From a virus: 64,000 nt of DNA. Position numbers and translations under genes: made by a program. A model generated the notes under the pieces. That model worked only from the letters and a program-made list of their open reading frames with translations, was not told where the DNA came from and ran no database searches. Below, in pieces: positions 58 through 12,877 of this stretch. The DNA lies in IMG/VR virus record IMGVR_UViG_3300044629_000431, positions 62,001 to 126,000 of that record. One strand, 5' to 3'. Each line of letters starts with the position of its first letter. Positions within the stretch are counted from its first letter, which is position 1.

Positions 58-89
58 AATACATTCTTTTGGGTGCCTTATGGGGAAAC

Positions 90-251: not shown

Positions 252-256
252 GGTTA

Positions 257-487: not shown

Positions 488-500
488 TGGTATGTGTAAA

Positions 501-680
501 TTACTCCTTTATTTTAGTATGACGCTCAGTGTTTGTCAAGTTTGCAAGTTGTCTTTGAATCTCAAACTTGACGGGAAACAAATGTGATGAAAAGAAACCA
601 GCATACTGCCCATCCTTGAGAAGATTGTAAATGTTCTCAACCTGCATCTGTGCCAGAATGAGTTTTGTCTTCTGGTCCAT
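501..680 (-). CDS. Hypothetical protein, 59 aa
   Basis: MDQKTKLILAQMQVENIYNL start. The ATG at 680 overlaps the upstream TGA as TGATG, which fixes the start; a TTG one codon earlier is less likely. Mostly helical, charged, no recognised domain. Confidence 0.6.
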   Translation of the reverse strand: MDQKTKLILAQMQVENIYNLLKDGQYAGFFSSHLFPVKFEIQRQLANLTNTERHTKIKE

Positions 681-862
681 CAAACAAACTCCTGAATGTA
701 GTAGTCTACGGTGACTTCCAGTTCTGCTGCTTTTTGTTCATAAAAGTTGTCAGTGTACTGCTGGGCAGCGACCCATGCTTGATGGTTAAACTGTTCGACC
801 TCAGCATGTTTCATAAAGTCTTCAAATGCGTTCATAAACTGTTTAATGTCCTCGTCGTTCAT
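680..862 (-). CDS. Hypothetical acidic helical protein, 60 aa
   Basis: MNDEDIKQFMNAFEDFMKHAE start, acidic and helical. Its ATG overlaps the stop of the upstream 49-aa gene as ATGA and its own stop overlaps the next start as TGATG, so it is translationally coupled on both sides. Confidence 0.65.
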   Translation of the reverse strand: MNDEDIKQFMNAFEDFMKHAEVEQFNHQAWVAAQQYTDNFYEQKAAELEVTVDYYIQEFV

Positions 863-1008
863 TTTGCGTAGCGGCAGTTAGGGTGAGGTGCAGGAAGTTC
901 GGCACATGCTTTATCATATGCCTTGAACAGTTCTTGGTCACGTTTGATGAGAACACCGTTCCACATCAAAATAGCAATGAAAGCGAGAAAGATGTAAGAG
1001 GTCTTCAT
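859..1008 (-). CDS. Small membrane-anchored or exported protein, 49 aa
   Basis: MKTSYIFLAFIAILMWNGV forms an N-terminal hydrophobic segment followed by a polar tail with two cysteines (KACAELPAPHPNC). Likely a membrane anchor or signal peptide. TGATG coupling to the upstream gene and ATGA to the downstream one. Below 60 codons, but well supported by coupling. Confidence 0.65.
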   Translation of the reverse strand: MKTSYIFLAFIAILMWNGVLIKRDQELFKAYDKACAELPAPHPNCRYAK

Positions 1009-1268
1009 CAGCAGGCACCGTAGAAAGGATTGCCAAGTTGAGGCAGGTTGGAGTTGTCACGGGTCTCAGTGTAACCAAGTGCCACACGCTCACGGATGTC
1101 CAGCAGCATCTCCACACGGTTCAGAAACTTCTTCGACACTTGACCGTGAGGAGCAAAGGTAACAGCACGGAGAAACCACTCTTTGCTGATGTCACCGTAG
1201 GGGGTCTTGACGGGGTAGAAGTCAACAACCATGTTACCGTCCTTGCTGGTCAGTTGAGGCGTTTGCAT
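1008..1268 (-). CDS. Hypothetical protein, 86 aa
   Basis: MQTPQLTSKDGNMVVDFYPV start. Soluble, with a basic middle part (SKKFLNRVEMLLDIRERV). Preceded by a dyad-box promoter whose TATAATACTAAGG lies about 25 bases before the ATG. First gene of a four- to six-gene coupled unit. Function unknown. Confidence 0.7.
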   Translation of the reverse strand: MQTPQLTSKDGNMVVDFYPVKTPYGDISKEWFLRAVTFAPHGQVSKKFLNRVEMLLDIRERVALGYTETRDNSNLPQLGNPFYGAC

Positions 1269-1294
1269 CGGGTCTTCCCCTTGACTACCTTAGT

Positions 1295-1351
1295 ATTATA
1301 GGTCAGAAGGACGGCACCACGTCGTTCCGTAGACCAGTTTGCGAAGTGTCC
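1295..1351 (-). promoter_or_regulatory. Dyad-box (middle-type) promoter
   Basis: TATAAT at 1295-1300, no -35. The upstream box (minus) reads GGACACTTCGCAAACTGG at 1334-1351, the same distance from the -10 as in eight other copies. The box overlaps the 3' coding end of the upstream gene. Confidence 0.6.
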
Positions 1352-1506
1352 ATCTGCTCAAACACCGTGTAAAGTTTGTTATACAGTGCTGGCACACTTC
1401 CATATTCTCTTGCGATTTGATGTTCTTCCCTGACTCCAAGTAACTGCAGTGCAGATAGAATCACACCAATTTCATGAACATTCAGTTGTACAGTTGTTTC
1501 AGTCAT
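1303..1506 (-). CDS. Hypothetical protein, 67 aa
   Basis: MTETTVQLNVHEIGVILSAL start. ATG at 1506 is preferred over a TTG at 1521 that would overlap the upstream gene. Helical, soluble. Its last codons contain the dyad box of the promoter for the next gene. Confidence 0.65.
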   Translation of the reverse strand: MTETTVQLNVHEIGVILSALQLLGVREEHQIAREYGSVPALYNKLYTVFEQMDTSQTGLRNDVVPSF

Positions 1507-1511
1507 TGTTA

Positions 1512-1892
1512 TCAGTCCCAAGATACGTTTTGAAGTAAGAAACCAGGCATTACCATTGACCAGGCACCCTGCTCACCAGTACCACTAATTTTATATTCCC
1601 ATTTATAGGCAAACTTATTATGACTGTCCCAAGTCATAAAACCTTTCTCCTTATCAAACCAGGATTTGATGGTCAGACCAAACCGATTGGAGTAAATGTT
1701 ACGGGTTCGCAGTGCTCCACCAGTCTCACGGGTTTCTACAACCTTACAGGTATCAAACTGAGCCTGAAGACCTGCATCCAGGGCACAAGGAGTTTCATAC
1801 ACAAATGGACGATAGACTTTCGGTTTTTGTGTAGTCTGTGCCAGTGCTGGAGAAGTCAGCAACAAAGTAGCGGCAAGTGCAAGCAGTTTCAT
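1512..1892 (-). CDS. Exported protein with signal peptide, 126 aa
   Basis: Residues 1-19 are a textbook signal peptide (MKLLALAATLLLTSPALAQ, AXA-type cleavage after ALA). The mature part has two cysteines (about residues 36 and 49) that could form a disulfide and several Trp/Tyr, suggesting a small periplasmic beta protein. Start overlaps the upstream stop as ATGA. An exported protein in an early-type phage cluster may act in the host envelope; function inferred only. Confidence 0.7.
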   Translation of the reverse strand: MKLLALAATLLLTSPALAQTTQKPKVYRPFVYETPCALDAGLQAQFDTCKVVETRETGGALRTRNIYSNRFGLTIKSWFDKEKGFMTWDSHNKFAYKWEYKISGTGEQGAWSMVMPGFLLQNVSWD

Positions 1893-2116
1893 TCAAACTC
1901 TCCAGTGCGATTATGTGGTTTAGAGTTTTTGAGTGAATAAACTTCTGTGCTCAATGTTTGAACGGCACTATACAGATTGCTTTCGACTTGATTCACTTTA
2001 TACTCAAGGTTTCCCATCTGACGATACAGATTCAAACAAAGTAAAAGGTTACCTGTGATGCCAATGACGATTGACCATCCGATAAGTTGCTCAAGTCGTT
2101 CTTCACTCAGTTTCAT
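1889..2116 (-). CDS. Membrane protein with coiled-coil tail, 75 aa
   Basis: MKLSEERLEQLIGWSIVIGI start at 2116; an upstream ATG at 2155 would overlap the preceding gene more heavily. One membrane segment (about residues 13-32) is followed by a heptad-like helix (MGNLEYKVNQVESNLYSAVQ). Single-pass protein, possibly spanin- or holin-like in shape, but no evidence of lysis function. Confidence 0.65.
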   Translation of the reverse strand: MKLSEERLEQLIGWSIVIGITGNLLLCLNLYRQMGNLEYKVNQVESNLYSAVQTLSTEVYSLKNSKPHNRTGEFE

Positions 2117-2267
2117 ATGACTCCTCTTTGACAAGTTCCAGATAATTATAACCAATCAATTGACGCCCTGCGTGGGTGCTGGTATTAACCTTCACACCTT
2201 CACTCTCCAGTTTCTCAATGCGACGGTTAGTGGCATTATTCAGTTTGGGTGTCCAAAAGTTACTCAT
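2103..2267 (-). CDS. Small hypothetical protein, 54 aa
   Basis: MSNFWTPKLNNATNRRIEKL start; basic N-terminal half, likely helical. Preceded by AGGAGGAAAACT, a strong Shine-Dalgarno 7 bases before ATG. Start overlaps the upstream stop (ATGA) and its end overlaps the next gene by 14 bases. Confidence 0.65.
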   Translation of the reverse strand: MSNFWTPKLNNATNRRIEKLESEGVKVNTSTHAGRQLIGYNYLELVKEESYETE

Positions 2268-2416
2268 AGTTTTCCTCCTGTTTTGTTATATTCTATCATA
2301 TATCTGCGGGCAGCGTAAGCCTCAAACTCAGATGGAAATGATGCGATGGTCCTGTTGGTATCAGTCCAGACAAGATACCATCGCTTTGCAAACTGTTTGA
2401 TGTAAATGGGTTTCAT
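2264..2416 (-). CDS. Small basic hypothetical protein, 50 aa
   Basis: MKPIYIKQFAKRWYLVWTDT start; looks like a short beta-hairpin followed by an FEAYAARRYMIEY helix, a shape common in tiny phage proteins. ATGA coupling on both sides. Confidence 0.6.
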   Translation of the reverse strand: MKPIYIKQFAKRWYLVWTDTNRTIASFPSEFEAYAARRYMIEYNKTGGKL

Positions 2417-2574
2417 ACAGAAGCAGTCACGGTGATTTCTTTAACGTTCAACCCACAAAGTTGAGAATAGACACGGTTGCAGATGATTGTAGATGCTTTC
2501 TTTGCTCTGGATTTCTCATACCAGACGGTCACACAACCGTCGTAGGTTTCAACTTGAACGCGATACTTGCTCAT
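2413..2574 (-). CDS. Small hypothetical protein, 53 aa
   Basis: MSKYRVQVETYDGCVTVWYE start; beta-rich with a basic helix (KSRAKKASTIICNRVYSQL). Similar layout to the neighbouring 50-aa protein. ATGA overlap with the next gene; three bases separate it from the upstream stop. Confidence 0.6.
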   Translation of the reverse strand: MSKYRVQVETYDGCVTVWYEKSRAKKASTIICNRVYSQLCGLNVKEITVTASV

Positions 2575-2577
2575 TGT

Positions 2578-2739
2578 TCAGTCCTCAGGGTAGAGTTTCC
2601 AACCATCAGGGCGAATGCCCAGTTCTTCACAACGCACCTCATAAACAATGCGCTTCAGAAGTTGAAGAGGCATTTCATTCTCAATCGTTTTCTGAATGGT
2701 GCGGCGGAGTTGGGCGTCTGTGGTGGTGTCGGTGACCAT
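2578..2739 (-). CDS. Small hypothetical protein, 53 aa
   Basis: MVTDTTTDAQLRRTIQKTIE start, helical, ends RPDGWKLYPED. The ATG is 20 bases downstream of a TATAATACTAAGG promoter with upstream dyad box, so it heads the 2.1-2.7 kb operon. Confidence 0.65.
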   Translation of the reverse strand: MVTDTTTDAQLRRTIQKTIENEMPLQLLKRIVYEVRCEELGIRPDGWKLYPED

Positions 2740-2764
2740 TGTGGTTTCCCTTGACTACCTTAGT

Positions 2765-2823
2765 ATTATAGGGCACCCAGAGCGGTCTCAAGAGGGTTCT
2801 GTGCCACTTGTCCAGCTGGCACA
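2765..2823 (-). promoter_or_regulatory. Dyad-box (middle-type) promoter
   Basis: TATAATACTAAGG (-10 at 2765-2770) with a perfect inverted repeat TGTGCCA-N10-TGGCACA at 2800-2823, 29 bases upstream. The box lies inside the last codons of the dam-like gene. Confidence 0.65.
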
Positions 2824-3638
2824 AAGTTGGTCACCAGCACTTCCGCTACATCTAGCGTAGAAGTCCCTCTACCTGCGGTATACTTAGCGGTCATATCGTA
2901 AATGTTACATCCAGGAAAATGTTTCTCATAGAAACCATCATGAATGTCTTTGTTGGAGTATGCGAAATGACCATTATGTGAGGTCAGTAGGTTACACAAT
3001 TGAATTTGATGGTCTTCGGTGAACCCACCCTGATACAGAACCACACTGTCCCGATACGGAGGGTCTGCATACACAAAATCTCCATCTTGTAACGGAACGT
3101 TCTCAAATGACTCATTTAGCATCTCACAACGCTGAAATAGTTTTGCCACTTCACGGATGTTAGTTTCATTGAAGAAACCCTCTTTCTGCAGACAAGTTCC
3201 AGGTGGAGTAGAATATCTGTGATTGCATTTGATGTATGCTTTCCACATTCCGTTGAAGTTTACCTGCAGCATAAACAGCAGCAGACCAGAATAGGTAATA
3301 TCATCCTGCTCAGTCATGCAATACTTCTCACGCAGTTCGTAATAGTATTCCTTACGCTCTTCTGGTGTTTTGGTCAACCATACCTGCACACATTCATTCC
3401 AGACGCTGATAACATCATTCGTATTGGTCTTGATGTTGCGATACATCAGAATGAGTTCACTGTTGAAATCATTGATGACCAGTTCTGCATTTGGATAACG
3501 TTCTGCGACCCACAGCAAGTTAGTGAGACCACCACAGAACAGGTCAACATAACGGGTGACTTTTTCGGGGTAAAACAAGTCAGCATATTGCTTTGCCATA
3601 CGCTGTTTGCTGCCTGTCCATTTGAAGAGTGGTTTCAT
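2766..3638 (-). CDS. dam: DNA adenine methyltransferase (D12 class, Dam-like)
   Basis: Transfers a methyl group from SAM to adenine N6 in DNA. N-terminal FKWTGSK and DLFCGGLTN form the SAM-binding motif (the usual FxGxG is FCGGL here). The catalytic DPPY is about residue 192, followed by FAYSN. At 290 aa it has normal D12-class length. In T4-like phages such enzymes protect DNA from host nucleases or mark strands. It has its own sigma70 promoter, so it is probably early. The short C-terminal tail carries the dyad box of the next promoter. The adjacent upstream gene may be a nuclease. Confidence 0.93.
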   Translation of the reverse strand: MKPLFKWTGSKQRMAKQYADLFYPEKVTRYVDLFCGGLTNLLWVAERYPNAELVINDFNSELILMYRNIKTNTNDVISVWNECVQVWLTKTPEERKEYYYELREKYCMTEQDDITYSGLLLFMLQVNFNGMWKAYIKCNHRYSTPPGTCLQKEGFFNETNIREVAKLFQRCEMLNESFENVPLQDGDFVYADPPYRDSVVLYQGGFTEDHQIQLCNLLTSHNGHFAYSNKDIHDGFYEKHFPGCNIYDMTAKYTAGRGTSTLDVAEVLVTNFVPAGQVAQNPLETALGAL

Positions 3639-3661
3639 AGTAATAGCAAGATAATTGATCT

Positions 3662-3690
3662 ATTATAGCAGAATTAAATCTTTACATCAA
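3662..3690 (-). promoter_or_regulatory. Sigma70 promoter of the dam-like gene
   Basis: TTGATG (3685-3690), 17-base spacer, TATAAT (3662-3667), then ATG 24 bases on. The dyad box of other promoters is absent. Confidence 0.7.
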
Positions 3691-4534
3691 CATATCCATC
3701 AGCGACTGCTTGAGTGCAGTTGAGTCGAACAAGTTTCGGATAAAACCTCAAACCAAGTCCATTCAAGTTATTTACGTCAACAATGTTAACGACTTTTTTA
3801 GTTTCTGGGTTAAAGTAAAAAATATTATACCAACCATCAATCTCTTTGTAACGCTTAAGTGCAAACTTACCGATAACATTATTAAATTCTTCTTTATTGG
3901 TATAGCACTCTGCCAGGTCTTCAGCAAGTTGAGTTACATCAACACCAGGATAAAGTTCAGTAAAATAATCAAGATATTGTTTTTGAGGATTTGATACTGA
4001 TGCAACATGTGCAAGAAAATCTTTTTTCAAATATGCACCAGGTTTATTACCATCAAAATATTTGCGATTCAGTTCATCAACCAAACCTTTGTCCGTTATG
4101 CCAGTTTTGATAACTTTAAGACTTGAATTACTTTTTTTAACTTCAGTTTTACCTTTTTTGTGAAGACCATCATTATCGCCATGACTAAAAGAATAATCCT
4201 TAAGAATAAAGGCAAGAGCATACTCACCAATACCAATAGATCTTGTAGTAATATTAACTATAACTTCAAACAAATGGGGAAAAATAGGATCATTTTTCAA
4301 ATTATCCGAAATGATATCGTTAATATCTTTACGGAAATTCTCATCAAAAATAGAAATATCAGTCAAATTTGAATCATCTTCCATCAGAGTAAGAGTGTTC
4401 TCTGGATCACCACCAAATTCTTCCTTGAAGAGCATCATAAATGCCAAAATAGTTTCTGGCAGTTCTTTACTATCAATACCCTTCTTCTTACAGAGAGCAC
4501 AAATTCTTGCACGAAGTTCTTGAACAGTAGTCAT
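3674..4534 (-). CDS. Unknown 286-aa protein, possible PD-(D/E)xK nuclease
   Basis: The middle of the protein reads GIGEYALAFIL, then GDNDGLHKKGKTEVKKSN. A conserved Gly-Glu helix followed by an Asp-containing hairpin and E-V-K is the usual layout of a PD-(D/E)xK nuclease core, also seen in some phage proteins of unknown role. The flanking parts are not recognised. ATG at 4534 is chosen because it lies 23 bases from the -10; the longer frame would cover the promoter. Being next to a DNA methylase makes a restriction-like pair conceivable, but the catalytic assignment is inference. Confidence 0.6.
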   Translation of the reverse strand: MTTVQELRARICALCKKKGIDSKELPETILAFMMLFKEEFGGDPENTLTLMEDDSNLTDISIFDENFRKDINDIISDNLKNDPIFPHLFEVIVNITTRSIGIGEYALAFILKDYSFSHGDNDGLHKKGKTEVKKSNSSLKVIKTGITDKGLVDELNRKYFDGNKPGAYLKKDFLAHVASVSNPQKQYLDYFTELYPGVDVTQLAEDLAECYTNKEEFNNVIGKFALKRYKEIDGWYNIFYFNPETKKVVNIVDVNNLNGLGLRFYPKLVRLNCTQAVADGYVDVKI

Positions 4535-4556
4535 GGTAATTTTTGAGTATCTCAAT

Positions 4557-4613
4557 ATTATACACCAACCATCAGGCGGTTGGGGAAGAACTGTGCCACT
4601 TGATGATCCGTCC
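4557..4613 (-). promoter_or_regulatory. Dyad-box (middle-type) promoter
   Basis: TATAATATTGAG (-10 at 4557-4562) with AAGTGGCACA 29 bases upstream. The spacer holds a perfect hairpin, CCAACC-N7-GGTTGG. Confidence 0.65.
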
Positions 4614-5034
4614 ACCCATTCTTCTCAAACAGGTACTCAAGATATAGGGTTTCTTCTTGCTCTCGTGCCTCAATTTCGTGTGGTTGATGCCAATAGTCGT
4701 AATTTTCGACGGGTTCTTTACCATAATACATTTTTCCACGCTTGGACCGCAGCGAACCCACTACCCACTGCCGCAGATGGACCAGTTCGTGCAAAAGAGT
4801 TTTTATATACAACTCCTCCTCCATATGGGTCTGAAGTTCAATAAGAAACTCACGGGGACGATAGGATTCACCCACATAGTCACAGTAACCATAAACTTCC
4901 TCACGTTTCAGACCACGATGAAGAATCTCTACCTCAATTTTATGACGGGGCAGAAACTTATTCAGAAACCAAGTGGTAACGTCCTCACAGAGGAGTTTAG
5001 AATAACCGTATCCAGAATACGTGATGTAAGACAT
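4558..5034 (-). CDS. SprT-like zinc metallopeptidase domain protein, 158 aa
   Basis: Contains the zinc-protease signature HELVHLRQW (about residues 84-92) with downstream conserved His and Glu (HQPHEIEA at about 119-126), as in SprT/DUF45-type metallopeptidases. Soluble. MSYITYSGYG at 5034 is the start; a TTG 21 bases upstream is less likely. The C-terminal codons carry the dyad box for the next gene. Substrate unknown. Confidence 0.75.
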   Translation of the reverse strand: MSYITYSGYGYSKLLCEDVTTWFLNKFLPRHKIEVEILHRGLKREEVYGYCDYVGESYRPREFLIELQTHMEEELYIKTLLHELVHLRQWVVGSLRSKRGKMYYGKEPVENYDYWHQPHEIEAREQEETLYLEYLFEKNGWTDHQVAQFFPNRLMVGV

Positions 5035-5096
5035 TGACCCCAGTGCAAAAACCAAACGAAGGATGAAACAAAAAGAAGTTTTTCTTTAGCAGTCAT
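4962..5096 (-). CDS. Doubtful overlapping 44-aa frame
   Basis: ATG at 5096 starts MTAKEKLLFVSSFVWFLHWG, a plausible membrane segment, but the frame overlaps the metallopeptidase gene by 73 bases and has no clear Shine-Dalgarno. Could be a leader peptide or chance. Confidence 0.25.
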   Translation of the reverse strand: MTAKEKLLFVSSFVWFLHWGQCLTSRILDTVILNSSVRTLPLGF

Positions 5097-5172
5097 CGGG
5101 TGTTTCAATTAATTTTCCAACGATTACTGCAACAGGAATAGAAAGTAAAATCCATAAAAGTATCCAAGTCAT
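5086..5172 (-). CDS. Membrane micropeptide, 28 aa
   Basis: MTWILLWILLSIPVAVIVGK is a single membrane helix followed by LIETPDDC. The start overlaps the upstream stop as ATGA, which argues for translation. Similar tiny membrane peptides occur elsewhere in this window (56974-57057). Confidence 0.5.
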   Translation of the reverse strand: MTWILLWILLSIPVAVIVGKLIETPDDC

Positions 5173-5405
5173 CGGGCAATAATATCCAGAGACTCCAGCA
5201 GCATCATAGCAAGTTCCACTTGGTTGTCCTCATCAACCACAGGAATGTTGGCATCCACAAATTCACTTGCCAGTTCGTGAAGCAACTCACACATTCTCTC
5301 ATCAGCGTGTGCAAAGGTAGCAAACTCACTCTTGAAACCGTTGCACAGAAGGCGCAGAGACTTGGTGACAGTCAGTTCGTTGATTTCTTTAGCAGCGTCA
5401 AACAT
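5169..5405 (-). CDS. Hypothetical helical protein, 78 aa
   Basis: Start MFDAAKEINELTVTKSLRLL at 5405 sits 28 bases from the -10; an ATG at 5426 would leave essentially no leader. Acidic, helical; no motif. Soluble early-type protein of unknown role. Confidence 0.6.
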   Translation of the reverse strand: MFDAAKEINELTVTKSLRLLCNGFKSEFATFAHADERMCELLHELASEFVDANIPVVDEDNQVELAMMLLESLDIIAR

Positions 5406-5432
5406 TTGAGGAGTGGTGTTGAACATGATGTT

Positions 5433-5489
5433 ATTATAGGGCATCTGGGGTGCCGTGAAGCACCCACTGTGCCAGTTTTCCAAGTGGTC
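5433..5489 (-). promoter_or_regulatory. Dyad-box (middle-type) promoter
   Basis: TATAAT at 5433-5438; box CACTTGGAAAACTGGCACA ends 29 bases upstream; the spacer contains hairpin GGGTGC-N6-GCACCC. Confidence 0.65.
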
Positions 5490-5928
5490 AGCGAGCATAC
5501 AAATAAGAACCTGCCCAGTCAGCATGTTGAAGCAACCATTCACGCTGCTCGATGATACGAAGGTCGAATCGAACACCTTTGGCAGGTGCTTTCCAACTAG
5601 CAGACTTATACACTTGACCAGTCTTCTTATCTACAAAAGCGTGGACAGAACGCGAACCATTCGCATTCATAATGATCTTGTGATACTTACGACCAGTCTC
5701 AGGAAAAAAGTCATAATCACAAGTGCCCTGCTTCAGTTTATCAATTTGCTTCTGGTGATACTCATGAGTATCAGCGTCATCAATAAACTTTTGATGAGAC
5801 TTGATGCTGTAATCAATGTAGTTCTGCCGCAGTGCCTCACAGAGAGCATAGGTATGCCCCAGAACAGCAGCAGCAATGTCTTTCCGTGCCTCAGCAGCAG
5901 CGGCGTAGTCAGCGAAGGTGGTGGTCAT
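5488..5928 (-). CDS. Hypothetical protein, 146 aa
   Basis: MTTTFADYAAAAEARKDIAA start at 5928, 22 bases from the -10. N-terminal Ala-rich helix, central charged helix (HEYHQKQIDKLKQG), C-terminal basic beta part (HAFVDKKTGQVYKSASWKAP). Reads like a nucleic-acid-associated phage protein, but no family is recognised. Confidence 0.7.
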   Translation of the reverse strand: MTTTFADYAAAAEARKDIAAAVLGHTYALCEALRQNYIDYSIKSHQKFIDDADTHEYHQKQIDKLKQGTCDYDFFPETGRKYHKIIMNANGSRSVHAFVDKKTGQVYKSASWKAPAKGVRFDLRIIEQREWLLQHADWAGSYLYAR

Positions 5929-5949
5929 TGCTTGGTTGCGTATGAACGT

Positions 5950-6008
5950 ATTATAGCGGCACCTAGGCACCGCTGAGGGGGTCAGTATGCCAGTTCAGGA
6001 TCTGGCAC
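5950..6008 (-). promoter_or_regulatory. Dyad-box (middle-type) promoter
   Basis: TATAATACG (-10 at 5950-5955). Upstream is the perfect dyad TGCCAG-N7-CTGGCA (5988-6007). Spacer hairpin AGCGG-N10-CCGCT. Confidence 0.65.
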
Positions 6009-6107
6009 CCAGTAGTCGTCTTCTCCTAAGTATCCCATCCAATCTTGGGGGTCAGAATCATACATTGCGATTTCACGCAGTTCATCCATCAGTTCAGACA
6101 GGTCCAT
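5982..6107 (-). CDS. Small acidic protein, 41 aa
   Basis: MDLSELMDELREIAMYDSDP start; strongly acidic. The ATG is 23 bases from a TATAAT at 6130. Its last codons (WVPDPELAY) contain the dyad box of the next promoter. Unknown function. Confidence 0.55.
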   Translation of the reverse strand: MDLSELMDELREIAMYDSDPQDWMGYLGEDDYWVPDPELAY

Positions 6108-6129
6108 AATGATCCTCAACTACTTGGGT

Positions 6130-6135
6130 ATTATA
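6130..6135 (-). promoter_or_regulatory. Isolated -10 element
   Basis: TATAATACC 23 bases before the 41-aa gene; hairpin GCGG-N6-CCGC just upstream. Neither a -35 nor a dyad box at the usual spacing. Confidence 0.4.
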
Positions 6136-6147
6136 GCAGAAAGCGGA

Positions 6148-6561
6148 CTAAACCGCCAGTGCTCCAGAAGGAATCTCTACAACTTCAGGCAGTTTGCTAT
6201 CATCAAACTGGTGCATATTGTAGCAGACCCATTCACCACTACGGAAGACATATGCAAACTCTTCGCTGTTGTCGGGCAGAAGATATTCACACAGGTCAGC
6301 ATCAAGGCGAGGAGGAGTATCTTCGCCACGATAAGAGTAGTAGTTAGCACCATATTGGGTTTTCTGATCGGACCCAAACACTTCATCAGTCCAGGCACAG
6401 GACATATCACCACCGTCAATCAGTTCGGCAGCAAGTTCTTTGCTATTGTAGTGCGTCTTCAGGATGCGACCCAACCAAGCTTCATAACCATCCCAGTGGT
6501 GATAGGCAGACAGGATAGAACCATCAGCAAGTTCAAGACCGATGCGAGCGCGAGTTGCCAT
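6148..6561 (-). CDS. Conserved-type T4-like hypothetical protein, 137 aa
   Basis: Starts MATRARIGLELADGSILSAY and continues HHWDGYEAWLG; later YSYRGEDTPPR and SGEWVCYNMHQ. This pattern is familiar from many T4-like phages, but the role is unknown. MATR at 6561 is favoured by promoter spacing (27 bases); an upstream frame would start inside the -10. Confidence 0.75.
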   Translation of the reverse strand: MATRARIGLELADGSILSAYHHWDGYEAWLGRILKTHYNSKELAAELIDGGDMSCAWTDEVFGSDQKTQYGANYYSYRGEDTPPRLDADLCEYLLPDNSEEFAYVFRSGEWVCYNMHQFDDSKLPEVVEIPSGALAV

Positions 6562-6587
6562 TGGGGGCGTTTGTTGATTACCCATAT

Positions 6588-6645
6588 ATTATAAGGGGTC
6601 TCCCAGCGAACCAGGAGACCCCTTGTGCCAGTTTTTCAACTGTCC
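6588..6645 (-). promoter_or_regulatory. Dyad-box (middle-type) promoter
   Basis: -10 TATAAT at 6588-6593, box ACAGTTGAAAAACTGGCACA ending 30 bases upstream; a terminator hairpin fills the spacer. Confidence 0.7.
6595..6622 (-). terminator. Intrinsic terminator after CP12
   Basis: Minus strand GGGGTCTCC-N10-GGAGACCCC, a 9-bp perfect stem, followed by TTATAAT, so the run-off merges into the next -10. Confidence 0.65.
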
Positions 6646-6858
6646 TCAGTCATCATAAACTCTACACTCTAATGCATCAGGATTGGCATCACAATAAAGC
6701 TCCAATGGCGTAGGGTCATGGTCATCATCAGGATGTTTTGCTTTGTATGCTTCTAGTGCCTCAAGTTCCTCTTCAGTATGTCTCCGTGCCTGAGGTGATG
6801 TTTGTGGATCATTCAGAATACTAATATCTTTCTGAATATGTTGATCGATATTGTCCAT
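6646..6858 (-). CDS. cp12: CP12, Calvin-cycle inhibitor
   Basis: CP12 bridges GAPDH and phosphoribulokinase into an inactive complex. The frame starts MDNIDQHIQKDISIL, has a Glu-rich middle (HTEEELEALEAY, residues 27-38) and the diagnostic C-terminus CDANPDALECRVYDD with the Cys56/Cys65 pair that binds GAPDH. The N-terminal cysteine pair of long host CP12s is absent, as in other phage copies. At 70 aa it is complete. A late-type ATAAATA lies 21 bases upstream and a terminator directly downstream. Known role in cyanophages: shift host carbon from the Calvin cycle to the pentose phosphate pathway. Confidence 0.93.
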   Translation of the reverse strand: MDNIDQHIQKDISILNDPQTSPQARRHTEEELEALEAYKAKHPDDDHDPTPLELYCDANPDALECRVYDD

Positions 6859-6878
6859 AGTTTTGTATCTTGTTGATA

Positions 6879-6886
6879 TATTTATT
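6879..6886 (-). promoter_or_regulatory. Late-type promoter of cp12
   Basis: AATAAATATATC, 21 bases before the CP12 ATG, a few bases after the TAA of the upstream gene. Confidence 0.5.
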
Positions 6887-6888
6887 TT

Positions 6889-7095
6889 TTATTCGCTTAA
6901 AGAAGAACCTCTCCAGTTCTTAGGAGGGGGAGGATCACACTTACCTTCAAGTGAGCGAACCATTAGTTCGGTGAACTTTTCCATTTTTTCCGCAGAAACT
7001 GTTTGTGGAGCATATGTAATTGCGTCTTTAAGTGCCACAAGTTCATCCCATTCTTCTTTTGTAAGAACTTCTGTGCCAGTTTTTGCGAGAGTCAT
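6889..7095 (-). CDS. Hypothetical protein, 68 aa
   Basis: MTLAKTGTEVLTKEEWDELV start; helical, ends with a Pro-rich stretch (CDPPPPKNWRG). Lies directly upstream of cp12 and probably shares its transcript. Its first codons happen to contain AAACTGGCACA, but no -10 follows at the right spacing. Confidence 0.65.
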   Translation of the reverse strand: MTLAKTGTEVLTKEEWDELVALKDAITYAPQTVSAEKMEKFTELMVRSLEGKCDPPPPKNWRGSSLSE

Positions 7096-7179
7096 AAGTT
7101 TCTTGCGGTGTTTCTCAATATTAGCATTTCAATACAATACTATCTAGAAACTTAATGTTTTCTTTGGGATCAAGTCATA

Positions 7180-7530
7180 TTACTTAATGAAATTGTCAAG
7201 TCTATCAAGATCGTTTAGTAGTTCTTTTTCTTTCTTTTTATCGTGATAATAAGACCACAAGGCATTATGAACATCCATAAGTTCAGTCACCCAGAAACCA
7301 GTAGGATAAACTCCTAGTGCATCTTGAAGACCACGATGACTCGTTCCTTCACTTTCCGCCTTACACATAATATAGCATATTGCTTGGAGCATATCAAGTT
7401 TATCAGACTCGGAAAGCATAAAATACTTTCCCACTGCCCTTTCTAGACTTTCTTGGTGAGACTTCTGCATTTCTTTGAATGAATCAGAGTTCCACCAGTC
7501 TTCAAATGCGTTTTTTCTTTCTTCAGTCAT
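7180..7530 (-). CDS. Hypothetical protein, 116 aa
   Basis: ATG at 7530 (MTEERKNAFEDWWNSDSFKE) overlaps the upstream gene by 8 bases; a longer frame would overlap by 44. Helical, with Trp-rich start and charged C-terminus (YYHDKKKEKELLNDLDRLD). The bases between this gene and 7095 hold no recognisable signal. Confidence 0.65.
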   Translation of the reverse strand: MTEERKNAFEDWWNSDSFKEMQKSHQESLERAVGKYFMLSESDKLDMLQAICYIMCKAESEGTSHRGLQDALGVYPTGFWVTELMDVHNALWSYYHDKKKEKELLNDLDRLDNFIK

Positions 7531-7753
7531 CTTTTCCAAAGATAGTTCCAAAAAAACCAGAGTCACCTGGTTTACGGTTTTCCAGTTTATCTAGCAAACT
7601 ATCAGTTGTTTGCAATGACTCAATTCGGGTAATAAGGTCTGCTATTACTGAACAAACCATCGGGCGTTCTTGACGTGCTGCATATGCTAGTGCATTACGC
7701 AGTGCTCCTTCTGCTTCTTTCAGCGATTCTTCAACAGATTGTGATAGTGCCAT
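7523..7753 (-). CDS. Hypothetical helical protein, 76 aa
   Basis: MALSQSVEESLKEAEGALRN start; one long helical region then GDSGFFGTIFGKDD. Start overlaps the upstream stop (TAATG-type, position 7753). Confidence 0.65.
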   Translation of the reverse strand: MALSQSVEESLKEAEGALRNALAYAARQERPMVCSVIADLITRIESLQTTDSLLDKLENRKPGDSGFFGTIFGKDD

Positions 7754-7947
7754 TAAAATTCACTCCGTCGTCTTGGTGTAAAAGGTTTATCATTCCATTT
7801 GCAATAATCTGGAAGTTCTGATTTTTGATCCTCAAAGTATTGGCAAAGTTGAGCAACATCTGGGGGATATTTTGGTCTCATATATTCACTTTTAATATTA
7901 TCAATATGGCAAAAAAGATTGTATCCACATATAAGAGCACCAATCAT
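7753..7947 (-). CDS. Hypothetical protein, 64 aa
   Basis: Starts MIGALICGYNLFCHIDNIKS, a weak hydrophobic N-terminus, then polar; four cysteines. Coupled to the gene ending at 7947 and to the one starting at 7753. Confidence 0.6.
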   Translation of the reverse strand: MIGALICGYNLFCHIDNIKSEYMRPKYPPDVAQLCQYFEDQKSELPDYCKWNDKPFTPRRRSEF

Positions 7948-8678
7948 TAGAATCTATACCTTTCAACGTGTTTTTTCAAAAGATAAGATCCATCACCCTG
8001 ATCTACCCATTCAATAACATCATTTTCCTTCAAATTTGCTGCTTCTAGCAGATCATCAGGGAATGTTATACAGTATTCATCTTTATCAGTGTCTTCATCT
8101 CTGACTTCTTCAACGGGCAGAACCCACGTCTTTTTCTTTTCTGGAGGAATCCAAAAACCATCATCAGTCATCGTCCAACCAGCGGCAATTGCCTCACTGT
8201 ATGATAGAGTTTTACCTTTTTCCTCATCAATAGGACCTGACTTTTTATTTTGTTTTGCTTCATATTCATCAACAATTTTTTGGTAGTATTGTTGAGTCCA
8301 ACCATCATTCCAAGCAGAGTTTGCTTCAATCTTTGCTTTTGTATACTCCAGACTACTTACTGTTGAACCAGTATGTTGTTCTGGAAGAGGACACTCAAAG
8401 TCATCATAACCCTCATAATACTTCTTTTCTGCAATTGCTGCTTCAAAAAGTTCTTTATCTTTTACAGGACGATGACCACTCAACAGTTCCAAAAGTCCAG
8501 AAGCACGACTCAAACGATCCTTATGATAATAATAATCTTCACGAACTACTTCACGAATCGCAGAATAGATTTCATGCGGTGAAGCATCCCCGTCTATTGC
8601 ATCATGAACCCATTCTTGCAACTTTTCGAGTGAATAGTCTTTATAATCAAAGTTAGCATTATTTGGATTGGAGGTCAT
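7947..8678 (-). CDS. AbrB-like C-terminal domain protein, 243 aa
   Basis: Residues about 1-190 are acidic and helical without a recognised family. The last 45 residues, CITFPDDLLEAANLKENDV then IEWVDQGDGSYLLKKH, match the swapped-hairpin AbrB/MazE pattern (I-x-hPxxLhxxhxhxxGDxh). This suggests a DNA-binding or regulatory end. Overlaps the upstream 56-aa gene by 20 bases. The domain call rests on pattern alone. Confidence 0.65.
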   Translation of the reverse strand: MTSNPNNANFDYKDYSLEKLQEWVHDAIDGDASPHEIYSAIREVVREDYYYHKDRLSRASGLLELLSGHRPVKDKELFEAAIAEKKYYEGYDDFECPLPEQHTGSTVSSLEYTKAKIEANSAWNDGWTQQYYQKIVDEYEAKQNKKSGPIDEEKGKTLSYSEAIAAGWTMTDDGFWIPPEKKKTWVLPVEEVRDEDTDKDEYCITFPDDLLEAANLKENDVIEWVDQGDGSYLLKKHVERYRF

Positions 8679-8829
8679 TGATGTAGTCTTTGATTGCTTG
8701 TTCCATAATAACCTGGATTTCTTTGCTTGTCAACCCATTTAACCATTTCCAATTTGGGTCTTGTGGGTCCCAATCCATTGAGAAAGACCCATCTTCATTT
8801 TGTGTTATCTTAAGACTATCAACATTCAT
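8659..8829 (-). CDS. Small hypothetical protein, 56 aa
   Basis: MNVDSLKITQNEDGSFSMDW start followed by DPQDPNWKWLNGLT and a helix. Overlaps neighbours by 11 and 20 bases. The DPxDPxWxWLN segment is distinctive, and I have not placed it in a family. Confidence 0.65.
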   Translation of the reverse strand: MNVDSLKITQNEDGSFSMDWDPQDPNWKWLNGLTSKEIQVIMEQAIKDYINDLQSK

Positions 8830-9004
8830 CGCAGTCAGTGTCCTTGTGTTTCTTACGAATCTTTTTAAGTTGTTTCAGTTCTTCCTTGATCATTTTATAT
8901 GCTTCATCGCTACCAATTTTATCACCCATCTCAAGAGCAATAATAATATCTACTCGGGTTCCAAAATGTGCGAGTGCTTTTTCAAAGCAGTCTAAGTCAT
9001 ACAT
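8819..9004 (-). CDS. Small helical protein, 61 aa
   Basis: MYDLDCFEKALAHFGTRVDI start at 9004 overlaps the upstream stop by 8 bases. C-terminal Lys-rich helix then DTDCDEC; three cysteines. Function unknown. Confidence 0.6.
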   Translation of the reverse strand: MYDLDCFEKALAHFGTRVDIIIALEMGDKIGSDEAYKMIKEELKQLKKIRKKHKDTDCDEC

Positions 9005-9233
9005 CTTGTTCAGACCAAAAACGTTCGGCAAGAATATCTATGCGAGCGTCCAAAGAATTTTCCACACGATAGAGTTCATTTGTCGTTTCAACGTTCTCTT
9101 CTTCCAGACGCTTTACATCAAGAAGAAGAGCGTTATACTTTTCTTCAAGAGCAGAAAGTCTTTCATACAGTTCATCCATAGGAGTCTCTTGTTTCAGACC
9201 CCACTTTCTATGAAACCAATACTGTTCACTCAT
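8997..9233 (-). CDS. Coiled-coil protein, 78 aa
   Basis: MSEQYWFHRKWGLKQETPMD start, then a continuous heptad-like helix (LYERLSALEEKYNALLLDVK onwards). Likely oligomeric. Coupled to the upstream gene by ATGA. Confidence 0.65.
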   Translation of the reverse strand: MSEQYWFHRKWGLKQETPMDELYERLSALEEKYNALLLDVKRLEEENVETTNELYRVENSLDARIDILAERFWSEQDV

Positions 9234-9394
9234 AATACACCAACCTCTTTCAAATAGTTTCTATACCTCATAAAACGATTCCAGTTTGGTTGTCCTGGAA
9301 CATTTAACTGATAACATATTTCACAATAACACAACCACTCATACCAAGGAGTGGTAGGATCTAATACGTGATATGGATAATCAGAGTTTTCCAC
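9230..9394 (-). CDS. Small Cys/Trp-rich protein, 54 aa, GTG start
   Basis: GTG at 9394 opens ENSDYPYHVLDPTTPWYEW, then LCYCEICYQL with a C-x-C-x2-C cluster and GQPNWNRFMRYRNYLK. Overlaps the upstream gene by 14 bases and ends ATGA-coupled to the next. May bind zinc. Confidence 0.6.
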   Translation of the reverse strand: MENSDYPYHVLDPTTPWYEWLCYCEICYQLNVPGQPNWNRFMRYRNYLKEVGVL

Positions 9395-9587
9395 CTACTT
9401 CAGACTCATAAGTTTTGGATTCAGCGAAACCTTCCTGCCGTCCTTTAAGATAAAAATGTGTCGCTGAGATACACTGCTGTTCAGTGAGAGACGTGATAAG
9501 TCCGTTGCCATCCTTATCAGTGGAATACCAGAGTCCATACTTTTTTTGCTCAACGTAGAAAACATCATCAATTAGTTTCTTTTCCAT
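9381..9587 (-). CDS. Hypothetical protein, 68 aa
   Basis: MEKKLIDDVFYVEQKKYGLW start; a beta-rich front (YSTDKDGNGLI) and a helical EQQCISATHFYLKGRQEGF part. 20-base overlap with the upstream 51-aa gene. Confidence 0.6.
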   Translation of the reverse strand: MEKKLIDDVFYVEQKKYGLWYSTDKDGNGLITSLTEQQCISATHFYLKGRQEGFAESKTYESEVGGKL

Positions 9588-9723
9588 GCTTTATCTCAGG
9601 ATGAGGAGCGTAAAGAGGACCATCATAGTCCTTATGAATTTCTTTGAGTGCTTTAATCACTTCAGGAGTTTCTTCCCAACTCCATTCGTTTCCATTTTTA
9701 TCAGTAAAGGTGCGTGCTGTCAT
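9568..9723 (-). CDS. Small hypothetical protein, 51 aa
   Basis: MTARTFTDKNGNEWSWEETP start. The K-N-G-N-x-W-x-W-E-E-T-P motif is shared in part with 19497-19667 (MEETPEVKWN) and recurs in T4-like cyanophages as I recall them. Function unknown. Confidence 0.65.
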   Translation of the reverse strand: MTARTFTDKNGNEWSWEETPEVIKALKEIHKDYDGPLYAPHPEIKHGKETN

Positions 9724-9724
9724 T

Positions 9725-9898
9725 TCACTCCTCAAATTTGTAACTTAGTTTGATGTCTTTCTTTTTTAGTTTGTAGCGATCAATGTGCTTTTGGCGGTTG
9801 TGTTCACTATCGAAGTAACACTTACGAGTTTCATTTCCATCTTTGTAAACCAACTTCCAGGGAAACTGGTCAAAAGGAAATTCTTCGGTGTAGTCCAT
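9725..9898 (-). CDS. Small basic protein, 57 aa
   Basis: MDYTEEFPFDQFPWKLVYKD start, then a basic helix (HNRQKHIDRYKLKKKDIKL). Could bind nucleic acid; not recognised. TGATG coupling at 9898. Confidence 0.65.
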   Translation of the reverse strand: MDYTEEFPFDQFPWKLVYKDGNETRKCYFDSEHNRQKHIDRYKLKKKDIKLSYKFEE

Positions 9899-10059
9899 CA
9901 GGTAGGTTGTTCAACACGTTGAGTATACACGGAATCAAACAGTTCGTCAAGTATCTCACCACACTCGTGATACTCTTTGCTATCAAGGATGGTTTTCTCA
10001 AACTGATAGCGACGCACAGCAGTAAAGATGAGTTTATATTGTTCAGAGGTAAAGTTCAT
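9898..10059 (-). CDS. Small hypothetical protein, 53 aa
   Basis: MNFTSEQYKLIFTAVRRYQF start, ends ELFDSVYTQRVEQPT. Helical and soluble; a pattern familiar from T4-like cyanophage small ORFs. Coupled at both ends. Confidence 0.65.
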   Translation of the reverse strand: MNFTSEQYKLIFTAVRRYQFEKTILDSKEYHECGEILDELFDSVYTQRVEQPT

Positions 10060-10535
10060 CACATTTCTCCAAGTGTATGAATGACTGGTTTTTCGTGTGC
10101 TAGGATGCGGTAAAGGTCTTCATTCTGTGCTGCTGATATGGGAATGAACTCCGTCTTATCATCAAACTCATCATCACGAATTGCTTGGTTAATTACAATA
10201 GATCCTTCTTCTCCTGACCAAGAACGATGGTATGTTCTCTGAGGAATGACCAGAGCACCAGAGCTACGATTAAGATGAACGATGTGATAAGGATACCTCC
10301 ATTCAGGATTTACAAGTTCAAATGTACGAATGCCAGACAGAACACGATTGTGGTCAATCTGATGGTAATGAATGTAAAACTGCTTTGCTCCTACAATATC
10401 ATCAGGAGGAGAGATAGCAGGTCCTTCATGAACTACAAGGTCGGATGCGTTAGAACCTTCTACTGAAATATCGTAGAAGATGACTGACTGGGTTTCACGG
10501 AATACTCTATGCTTCTTAAAAGTTACTTCGCTCAT
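10059..10535 (-). CDS. Possible cupin-fold protein, 158 aa
   Basis: The central part, FYIHYHQIDHNRVLSGIR followed by ALVIPQRTYHRSWSGEEGSI, resembles a beta-barrel with paired His/Glu like small cupins or sugar 3,4-ketoisomerase folds. Metal ligands cannot be assigned with certainty. ATG overlaps the upstream stop at 10535. Confidence 0.6.
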   Translation of the reverse strand: MSEVTFKKHRVFRETQSVIFYDISVEGSNASDLVVHEGPAISPPDDIVGAKQFYIHYHQIDHNRVLSGIRTFELVNPEWRYPYHIVHLNRSSGALVIPQRTYHRSWSGEEGSIVINQAIRDDEFDDKTEFIPISAAQNEDLYRILAHEKPVIHTLGEM

Positions 10536-10729
10536 TAGTCGTAGGTGTTTTGCTCCTGATTCAATCTATCTATGTGATGATAAATGGTTGCTTGTGAATA
10601 CTGAAATTCTTTAAACCTTTGAGGTTTATTCTTCTGCATCTTGGTCAGCATATTGATCCATTGATAGCGACTATCCACTACCCAACCATAACGACGCTCA
10701 TCATGCATCAAATCAAAAATTGAGATCAT
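10535..10729 (-). CDS. Hypothetical protein, 64 aa
   Basis: MISIFDLMHDERRYGWVVDS start; basic, helical. ATGA-coupled to the upstream 63-aa gene. No motif. Confidence 0.6.
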   Translation of the reverse strand: MISIFDLMHDERRYGWVVDSRYQWINMLTKMQKNKPQRFKEFQYSQATIYHHIDRLNQEQNTYD

Positions 10730-10917
10730 TTGAACCCCTTGCTTTTCTTTTTGTCCAAAACCTCAATATGACTCAAAAAGTGTCCGCCATTTTGAAACCA
10801 AGTGAGTTGAACATCTTCATAGTTATCGAAGATAATCTCTTTACCATCTTCAAAAACAACCTTATAATCATGACGATCATAAGGTTTATCACAAGTTTGT
10901 TTAAACGTTTGAGTCAT
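10726..10917 (-). CDS. Hypothetical protein, 63 aa
   Basis: MTQTFKQTCDKPYDRHDYKV start; beta-rich (VVFEDGKEIIFDNYEDVQLTW) with a basic tail KKKSKGFK. Coupled on both sides. Confidence 0.6.
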   Translation of the reverse strand: MTQTFKQTCDKPYDRHDYKVVFEDGKEIIFDNYEDVQLTWFQNGGHFLSHIEVLDKKKSKGFK

Positions 10918-11099
10918 TTTAGGTATTGTGGTTTTTCTGTGTCAAACTGTGTCCACCTTGCTATTTTAAGGCACATCAGCAAAGTTTGGTGTTCACGGTT
11001 ATACAGTTCCCAATCTTGTTTGAGTTTCGCAGCATATCTACGACGATAGGCACAAGACCAAACATTAAAAAAGATTTTATCCTTTTCACTCAAGGACAT
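10914..11099 (-). CDS. Small basic helical protein, 61 aa
   Basis: MSLSEKDKIFFNVWSCAYRR start at 11099, inside the last codons of the upstream gene; a longer frame would overlap more. Very basic helix YRRRYAAKLKQDW. Unknown. Confidence 0.55.
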   Translation of the reverse strand: MSLSEKDKIFFNVWSCAYRRRYAAKLKQDWELYNREHQTLLMCLKIARWTQFDTEKPQYLK

Positions 11100-11269
11100 A
11101 TCTGTTCTCCGTATACCCAACCAGTATCAGTTTTAATAAGTTCCCAATAAGAATCCCCATCAAGTCTCCTGAAGAGATAACGTGTCCCATCCTCACGCTC
11201 ACACATAAAATCACACTTGTGGGGAGAATACAAGCGAACCTCAAGTACTTTGTCGTTTTTGTTGTGCAT
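11090..11269 (-). CDS. Small hypothetical protein, 59 aa
   Basis: MHNKNDKVLEVRLYSPHKCD start; beta-rich with a CDFMCEREDGTRYLFRRLDG segment. Overlaps its upstream neighbour by 29 bases, an unusually large overlap for this region. Confidence 0.55.
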   Translation of the reverse strand: MHNKNDKVLEVRLYSPHKCDFMCEREDGTRYLFRRLDGDSYWELIKTDTGWVYGEQICP

Positions 11270-11381
11270 AGGTAATTACATACTTTTTGTGTTCGGTATG
11301 AAGGTCAGAACAAATATAGTGTTCCAACTTTCCACCAAGTTCTTCTGCGATTTTTTCTAATTGTTTTTCAATTTCAGTCAT
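11241..11381 (-). CDS. Small hypothetical protein, 46 aa
   Basis: MTEIEKQLEKIAEELGGKLE start, helix then beta part HYICSDLHTEHKKYVITYAQ. ATGA coupling to the upstream 116-aa gene supports it. Confidence 0.55.
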   Translation of the reverse strand: MTEIEKQLEKIAEELGGKLEHYICSDLHTEHKKYVITYAQQKRQST

Positions 11382-11728
11382 TGTTCATCATCCCAAGGTG
11401 CTTTACGATTCATAATCTCTTTAATTCGTTCTACCACAGCAGGGTCTTGTGGTTCATTGATTCGTCGCACAAGTTCATCATAATCCTCTACCGATAGAGT
11501 AATCTTTGGTAGTTCTTGTGCTAACCTCAACTTACGTTCTGGACTGATAGTTAGGTTGTATGGGTCATCATAAGGAAAGATATACTCTCGATACCAACCT
11601 ATACTCAAACTCTCCCAGAACTCACCATATCCCCATTCATCACCGTCATTATAACAGTCAAGAATATACAAGACATTACGAAATCCATCAAGGAAGAGTT
11701 CCCATTTTGTTGGGTTTTCAAATCTCAC
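11378..11728 (-). CDS. Hypothetical acidic protein, 116 aa
   Basis: MRFENPTKWELFLDGFRNVL start; aromatic-rich first half (YNDGDEWGYGEFWESL). The last 45 residues (ITLSVEDYDELVRRINEPQD then MNRKAPWDD) recall short DUF1778-like or phage regulatory tails. ATGA-coupled. Confidence 0.65.
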   Translation of the reverse strand: MRFENPTKWELFLDGFRNVLYILDCYNDGDEWGYGEFWESLSIGWYREYIFPYDDPYNLTISPERKLRLAQELPKITLSVEDYDELVRRINEPQDPAVVERIKEIMNRKAPWDDEQ

Positions 11729-11919
11729 GGCGTTTCATCGCTCCAGTAGTATCTCAGTTTATCACCATCGGCGTGAATATTCAAGTGGTAAATCTTTTTG
11801 TCTTGTGTGTAAATGCCCACCCACAGACTCCGTTCGTTCATACTTTCCAAGTGAAACATTTCCACCTCTTCCAGCACAATTTCGTCAGGATTTTCTTCCC
11901 ATCTTACTAGTTTAGTCAT
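11725..11919 (-). CDS. Hypothetical beta-rich protein, 64 aa
   Basis: MTKLVRWEENPDEIVLEEVE start at 11919, 8-base overlap with the upstream gene. Pattern of short strands (LWVGIYTQDKKIYHLNIHAD). No family recognised. Confidence 0.6.
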   Translation of the reverse strand: MTKLVRWEENPDEIVLEEVEMFHLESMNERSLWVGIYTQDKKIYHLNIHADGDKLRYYWSDETP

Positions 11920-12067
11920 CGTATTCAAGGTAAAAACTATCTTTTTCTAGGAAATGAATCTTATCGTGGATTGCTTGAAGTGCCGTCTGTTTGATTGCCC
12001 ATAAGTCATCATCATCGTCAACCAAAATATTCACTTTGGTTGTTACATTCACTCGGAGCGACTTCAT
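11912..12067 (-). CDS. Small hypothetical protein, 51 aa
   Basis: MKSLRVNVTTKVNILVDDDD start, then a helix and acidic end YLEYDD. ATGA overlap with the upstream Cys-rich gene. Confidence 0.6.
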   Translation of the reverse strand: MKSLRVNVTTKVNILVDDDDDLWAIKQTALQAIHDKIHFLEKDSFYLEYDD

Positions 12068-12279
12068 TTTGCCTCCCAGAACCTACCATCAGGACCACAA
12101 GAATAATCAAGTTCTTTCCAACGACTTGACCTCAGCATATCACAAAATCTTTTATCATATCCAGTTACAGGATTTGTGGTAGTGTTTGGTGAGGCACAAG
12201 TATCGTGTCGGAATCCCATTCCAAATAAATGAGTCAACCAATCCTTACGATAATACTTACAATCTTTACACAGTTTCAT
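12064..12279 (-). CDS. Cys-rich putative metal-binding protein, 71 aa
   Basis: Cysteines at residues 4, 7, 28, 46 and 61 (CKDC, DTC, RFC, SCGPDGRFWEAK). The spacing fits a zinc ribbon or a degenerate HiPIP-like cluster; the terminal CGxxGRFWE is common in small phage zinc proteins. 14-base overlap with the upstream gene. Confidence 0.65.
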   Translation of the reverse strand: MKLCKDCKYYRKDWLTHLFGMGFRHDTCASPNTTTNPVTGYDKRFCDMLRSSRWKELDYSCGPDGRFWEAK

Positions 12280-12877
12280 TGTTCTTTCTCACTCGTTCAA
12301 GAAACTCATCACTCTGTTGATACAATCGTGCAATCAAATCTTTGATGTCATCAATCGCAATCACATTATACTCCACATTCATATTTTCGCAAATGAGAGC
12401 ATCAATCATACATTCCAGTGTGAGTGCTTGCATATGTTCTGGTGTAATTGGTGTCCCATGAGGAAGACCAGAACATTCTTCATTATAGAAGTGATTATAG
12501 CGTCGCAGAACAGTATCACTTCGTTCTTTGCGTTCCCATTCTTCCTTCTCAATCTCCGCAAGTTGTTTTAGATCATCACCATTCTCTTTGTAGAGTTTAT
12601 CAACAGCATCAAGTGCTTTACGCTCTGCTTCACGACGCTCTGCCTCCTCAAACATTGCATCAGGATATGGTTCCTGATTATTCATAAGTTCCACAATCTT
12701 ATTGTAATCGTGTGTGGATACTTTTGCATTGATGGGTTGCTTACTCATAAGTTTCCGGAGTTGTTCTCTACCGTATTCAGTCAATTCGTGCTTTTTGTTG
12801 CGGAGTTCTTCTATTTCTTCTTGGGTGAGATTGACCCACACCATATCATCAGGCACAGGGAGATTATGTTCAGTCAT
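12266..12877 (-). CDS. Hypothetical charged helical protein, 203 aa
   Basis: MTEHNLPVPDDMVWVNLTQE start at 12877; MTE is a recurrent N-terminus in this cluster, and the alternative ATG at 12889 overlaps the upstream gene more. Long Glu/Lys-rich helices (residues 70-130), likely coiled coil. Role unknown. Confidence 0.65.
   Translation of the reverse strand: MTEHNLPVPDDMVWVNLTQEEIEELRNKKHELTEYGREQLRKLMSKQPINAKVSTHDYNKIVELMNNQEPYPDAMFEEAERREAERKALDAVDKLYKENGDDLKQLAEIEKEEWERKERSDTVLRRYNHFYNEECSGLPHGTPITPEHMQALTLECMIDALICENMNVEYNVIAIDDIKDLIARLYQQSDEFLERVRKNNETV

Follow-up and report, generated by a model that had tools for sequence, protein, structure and literature searches.

A late-type promoter octamer precedes cp12 within a block of early-type genes in a probable T4-like cyanophage and its relatives

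Results

The cp12 gene and its surroundings

The window, by which we mean the whole stretch of 64,000 nucleotides analyzed here, corresponds to positions 62001-126000 in a virus record 146,477 bp long, and its gene content indicates that it probably belongs to an incomplete genome of a T4-like cyanophage. On the minus strand at 6646-6858 lies a coding sequence of 70 amino acids with a CP12 domain. It matches Pfam CP12 (PF02672; E = 9e-15, 55.6 bits, above the curated cut-off of 22.7) and phrog_627 (E = 2e-29), confirming both the CP12 gene proposed in the original prediction and its coordinates. Only the C-terminal cysteine pair (CDANPDALEC) is present in this CP12, and binding or inhibition of GAPDH/PRK by the protein is putative. 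Phage CP12 is thought to turn off host carbon fixation, and the usual account places it in the takeover of host metabolism, ahead of virion assembly.

The gene lies between two others on the same strand: a small upstream gene (phrog_14124, 6889-7095), whose stop codon is 30 nt from the cp12 ATG, and a following gene (phrog_1987, 6148-6561), whose likely start, judged from spacing, is the second ATG, 26 nt after a TATAAT. The description of cp12 as lying amid early-type genes stands insofar as the surrounding ORFs are small and mostly without known function in PHROGs, and six neighboring families lack the late motif described below; the designation is therefore one of gene content and motif absence. 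A DNA-similarity search with positions 5600-8200 against a phage collection (50,697 records, from which very near records may be absent) returned no match.

In 17 of the 21 isolates fetched for comparison, the neighborhood of cp12 is a cluster of gp5 and tail-protein genes. The window has a gp5-like baseplate hub/tail lysozyme gene at 40430-42454 (minus strand), flush against a tail protein gene at 42454-43752 with no cp12 between them, and P-HM2 has the same empty site.

The late-type octamer upstream of cp12

An octamer of the late (gp55) type, AATAAATA, is located at 6886-6879 on the minus strand, beginning 2 nt after the stop codon of the upstream gene. It is separated from the cp12 ATG by 20 nt, so that its last base is at -21, as originally predicted. 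By eye, the 20-nt stretch between octamer and ATG (6859-6878, minus strand) has no Shine-Dalgarno-like GGAG. A search of the 100 nt preceding the window's cp12 ATG gave no sigma-70 -35/-10 match (score 0), and a sigma-70 promoter scan of positions 1-16000 gave no excess over expectation (40 seen, 41.2 expected).

The number of AATAAATA copies in the window (nine, compared with 5.68 expected) is near chance, being reached in 12 out of 100 shuffles, and we dropped it as evidence; the evidence is instead one of position and conservation. Over the whole record, the minus strand, which has most of the genes, carries 41 copies of the motif NATAAATA, and the plus strand two. Among the 41 minus-strand sites, 24 are located 10-30 nt before the ATG of an ORF that is ≥60 amino acids long, which is the top result among 21 permutations of the same letters (runner-up, 13 out of 24). 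The genes that follow NATAAATA in this phage include those for tail sheath, head scaffold, baseplate wedge subunits, a tail protein, and tail fibers, and also those for a DNA helicase and a methyltransferase. Close to where the early-type block ends, two further NATAAATA sites, at 17981-17988 and 19271-19278 (minus strand), precede small ORFs by 16 and 21 nt.

T4-type late transcription depends on gp55 and on replication and gp45. A gp55 gene is found at G000:2595-3068 (phrog_234, E = 6e-70; 73% identical to P-HM2 gp55), and a homolog of the late-transcription co-activator gp33 at 53834-54196 on the minus strand (tblastn with P-HM2 gp33: 46% identity, E = 2.6e-28). The window's cp12 thus combines the features of a T4-type late promoter: an octamer close upstream, no sigma-70 pair, and a phage that encodes gp55 and gp33. 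The late-type promoter that had been predicted for cp12 is well supported by the position of the octamer, its strand bias, its conservation, and these two genes.

Conservation of the octamer at cp12 loci

A search of IMG/VR with this CP12 gave 364 confirmed relatives, of which the best 80 were used. In the phage collection 367 records match CP12, from which 21 isolates were fetched so as to span diverse phages and to include some with published transcription data. Together with the window these make 102 cp12 loci, which we sorted by gene neighbors.

Wherever cp12 lies in the same block of small genes as in the window, AATAAATA is found, with identical bases, 18-22 nt before its ATG (72 out of 72 loci: 70 from the best 80 of 364 IMG/VR relatives, S-SRM01, and the window), although these loci were chosen by CP12 similarity and are related, so the counts do not represent independent events. 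The distance between octamer and ATG is 20 or 21 nt in 67 of the 72. The 72 loci have 46 distinct leaders, falling into 15 groups under 75% identity; when these are aligned on the motif, all eight octamer bases are fixed and the flanks diverge. Letter shuffles of the same upstream stretches place NATAAATA at that distance in ∼1% of trials. Four loci (L006, L008, L009, and L024) have the usual upstream gene ∼640 nt farther away and keep the motif at cp12. The CP12 proteins of two others (L002 and L003) are identical to that of the window, whose 70-nt upstream sequence these loci also share. A CP12 tree proved unusable for counting relocations of the gene because it is poorly resolved (40 out of 73 inner branches open).

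Outside this block the motif is less regular. In the gp5/tail-protein setting, cp12 has its own motif in two of the nine IMG/VR loci (again from the best 80 of 364) and in nine of the 17 isolates, leaving 15 out of 26 loci without one. The motif is present at cp12 in one of two loci in a talC setting and in one of two in other settings. We infer that several of the motif-less genes in the gp5 setting, which are squeezed between the tail protein gene and gp5, would be co-read with both.

Neighboring genes and late-gene controls

For each gene family at these loci we counted the late motif in distinct leaders, excluding genes with an unplaceable start or <130 nt of upstream sequence. The motif is found in 57 out of 74 cp12 leaders over all settings. 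It is absent from all six neighboring families at the same loci: up68 (0/53), up128 (0/36), up76 (0/44), the AbrB-like gene (0/38), dn145 (0/30), and dn160 (0/43). A methylase gene that adjoins cp12 in some loci also lacks it (0/8). As late-gene controls, gp5 has the motif in three of 17 leaders and the tail protein gene preceding gp5 in none of nine; since these controls mostly lack it, absence of the motif alone does not mark an early gene.

In eight loci (L030, L034, L041, L046, L047, L051, L057, and L077), a small gene whose product starts MSRFTDLF lies 3′ of cp12. It has a AAATAAATA of its own, the motif being present in all four distinct leaders, and is a putative second late-type unit within the early-type block.

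The 3′ side of cp12

A 14-bp hairpin with a G+C-rich stem, a candidate transcript 3′ end, is located 3′ of cp12 at 6593-6624 on the minus strand (fold, -25.2 kcal/mol; z, -4.4). By the rule that we used it is not followed by a U-run (the tail after the last C is UUAUAAUAUA), and it is not among the hairpins listed by our terminator scan. The claim that cp12 has its own terminator therefore survives only in part: The hairpin is strong, but it lacks a U-run, was passed over by the scan, and lies within the promoter-like module of the next gene. It is a real but non-canonical structure, which at the same time forms the spacer in the putative promoter of the next gene.

Hairpin alignments were made from 21 sequences in two families (20 drawn from 28 distinct sequences, the other eight being left out, and one from S-SRM01). 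Among the 13 related sequences of the first family, four out of 12 base pairs are changed on both sides, a level reached in three of 500 shuffles. The second family (eight sequences, seven distinct) shows no excess of covariation over shuffles.

The sequence after cp12 varies among the 72 same-block loci (IMG/VR part from the best 80 of 364). The inverted-repeat/TATAAT module described in the next section occurs in 39, of which 14 also satisfy the U-run rule; a U-run terminator is found in 21, the late motif of the next gene in eight, and none of these in four. S-SRM01 is counted among the 21 loci with a U-run terminator, its repeat being a variant that the pattern missed. A boundary after cp12 is therefore usual in same-block loci, though it is not always a canonical terminator.

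An inverted-repeat/TATAAT module

Directly after the cp12 stop codon lies an imperfect inverted repeat, GGACAGTTGAAAAACTGGCAC (6625-6645, minus strand), a putative operator or activator site, and 31 nt farther on a TATAAT (6588-6593, minus strand), the putative -10 element of the next gene's promoter. The general layout of the module is an imperfect inverted repeat (approximately TGNCANTTNNNNAACTGGCAC), a spacer of 29-31 nt, and TATAAT. Five copies occur in the window, all on the minus strand (6588-6645, 5433-5489, 15011-15068, 16689-16745, and 21365-21420); in these the repeat ends in AACTGGCAC and a gene start follows the TATAAT. The spacer often holds a hairpin or terminator, in some copies with a U-run (as at 15068-15011).

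At 29, 30, or 31 nt from the 219 distinct A[AC][CT]TGGCAC sites of the loci collected, we counted 105 -10-like hexamers, with zero to three in each other bin. For five control words, the hexamer counts at 29-32 nt were 0, 0, 0, 3, and 0, the three coming from 193 sites of the other half of the repeat. An ORF start follows within 80 nt in 104 out of 106 module elements, a raw count that has no chance control. A shorter pattern of the module has five matches in the window, whereas 100 shuffles yielded none. Of 21 records searched, a set that did not include isolate P-SSM3, this phage and S-SRM01 have five copies each, S-SSM7 has two, and P-SSM4 one; the other 17 have none. A stricter pattern is found in at least 120 stretches of viral contigs, and its backward control in none. 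The single match in a prokaryote genome collection (L109, NHFO01000061.1) is on a contig titled Flavobacteriales MAG TMED113; because, by eye, it encodes a protein resembling the DUF7717 protein at 5488-5970 of the window, we consider it probably a misbinned, cyanophage-like phage contig.

By the strict pattern, the module stands before dn145 in 12 out of 30 distinct leaders, before dn160 in 16 out of 43, and before cp12 in none out of 74. We infer that non-late genes use the module as a class of promoter, perhaps together with a regulator encoded by the phage, and the copy at 6588-6645 looks like the promoter of the next gene (phrog_1987). A small transcriptional regulator gene (phrog_385, 55518-55769, minus strand) beside a PhoH-like gene is a candidate for the protein that binds the inverted repeat. 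Among the papers listed, our literature search turned up no description of the module. Through the work on cp12, a promoter-like module has come to light that is widespread in cyanophages.

Discussion

Timing of cp12 and alternative readings

A published RNA-seq report on P-HM2 assigns the auxiliary metabolic genes, including cp12, exclusively to the middle cluster (PMC5082946). The original premise that cp12 is normally an early takeover gene is therefore not quite right: It is a middle gene in that account, and in 17 of the 21 isolates it lies beside the gp5/tail cluster. Our scan of P-HM2 found NATAAATA 31 times on the plus strand and three times on the minus strand. When set against the annotation tables, 15 of the 34 sites are ≤40 nt before an annotated start: eight belong to virion or tail-type genes, four to hypothetical proteins, and one each to a possible cytidyltransferase, psbA (37 nt), and cp12 (24 nt). 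The psbA gene is also in the middle cluster of that report, yet has this motif, and so two middle genes carry NATAAATA; the presence of the motif is not enough to establish late timing. At P-HM2 cp12, however, a TTGACA overlaps CATAAATA, giving a sigma-70 match of 10 out of 12 positions, whereas no such promoter overlapping the octamer was found at the window's cp12 (score 0). If one feature makes P-HM2 cp12 earlier, it is most likely this overlapping match, which is not seen in the window.

Late timing of the window's cp12 is likely, but P-HM2 cautions against taking it for granted, and two other readings have to be weighed against it. The gene may be a middle gene as in P-HM2, read first by early read-through and later from the late promoter, with a peak in mid-infection, a reading that we consider rather improbable. 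P-HM2 itself speaks for it. It is also consistent with S-PM2, in which, according to a review, every homolog of the T4 MotA-controlled genes has both an early and a late promoter (PMC2984593), an arrangement that fits that of P-HM2 cp12; the review nevertheless adds that, by Q-PCR, a few S-PM2 genes whose T4 counterparts are middle genes gave no such profile (PMC2984593). At the locus, the 30 nt from the upstream stop codon to the cp12 ATG leave no room for a terminator, and since the upstream gene ends so close to the octamer, read-through from early genes is possible. Weak sigma-70-like matches (≥9 of 12) upstream of cp12 are somewhat commoner than in letter shuffles (21 of the 72 same-block loci, 29% versus 14%), but the window has none, and a match of 10 out of 12 occurs in only one of the 72. 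Nor does the inverted-repeat/TATAAT module precede cp12 in any distinct leader.

It is far less probable still that AATAAATA before cp12 is an A-rich feature of translation starts, or a chance occurrence in an A+T-rich genome, and no promoter. The near-chance count in the window would agree with this, as would the A-rich leaders, in which ACAAAAC is also common near the ATG. It is difficult to reconcile with an octamer fixed at a set spacing between diverging flanks in all 72 loci (IMG/VR part from the best 80 of 364), with the absence of the motif from six neighboring families at the same loci, and with the 41-to-2 strand bias and the top rank among 21 letter permutations.

A proposed late-type unit

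We therefore favor, and hold to be probable, the reading that cp12 forms a late-type transcription unit by itself amid a block of small early-type genes. Host RNA polymerase, together with phage gp55, gp33, and the sliding clamp, would recognize AATAAATA at 6886-6879, and transcription would start ∼6-7 nt downstream of the octamer, so that cp12 would be read from a leader of ∼14 nt. The transcript would stop at or near the hairpin at 6593-6624, and the next gene past it would start from a different kind of promoter. CP12 would then be made from the middle-to-late phase on, any earlier transcript arising only by read-through from upstream.

A broader proposal is more tentative, and we put it forward as a possibility that may well prove wrong: that this lineage keeps cp12 apart from the late gp5 cluster, among early genes and, in all same-block loci examined, under its own gp55-type promoter, coupling shut-off of the Calvin cycle to replication-dependent late transcription; and that in many of these phages, including this one, a phage-specific module shields the 3′ side of the gene, closing one transcript and opening the next, and possibly serving as the binding site of a regulator that the phage encodes.

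A late-type promoter fixed at cp12 in the relatives examined predicts that carbon fixation is shut, or kept shut, during the virion-building phase. According to a second review, CO2 fixation stops at ∼2 h in S-RSM4, which carries cp12, and at ∼4 h in S-PM2, which does not (PMC10452541). In S-RSM4, cp12 lies directly against gp5 and lacks its own NATAAATA. With the arrangement described here, one can test cleanly whether it is promoter class or gene function that cyanophage timing follows.

Comparison with known systems

The arrangement is new, though its parts are known: Both the metabolic gene and the promoter class have been described, and it is the place that is unexpected. The first review cited above gives NATAAATA as the late promoter of cyanomyoviruses (PMC2984593). 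The late promoters of T4-like cyanomyoviruses (S-PM2 and Syn9), in which NATAAATA is the counterpart of T4 TATAAATA, resemble that of cp12 in the octamer, its distance from the start codon, the lack of a -35 element, and the presence of gp55 and gp33; they differ in that they stand before virion genes, whereas here the octamer stands before a metabolic gene within an early-type block. The marine cyanomyoviruses with cp12 next to gp5 (P-SSM4, S-RSM4, Syn19, and others) share the CP12 family with this phage, but have the gene in the tail/baseplate cluster, with its own NATAAATA in nine of the 17 isolates and none in eight. Like the window's cp12, that of P-HM2 is a member of the CP12 family with an upstream NATAAATA and a location away from gp5; in contrast to it, P-HM2 cp12 has an overlapping sigma-70-like promoter, is directly followed by talC, and belongs to the middle genes by RNA-seq.
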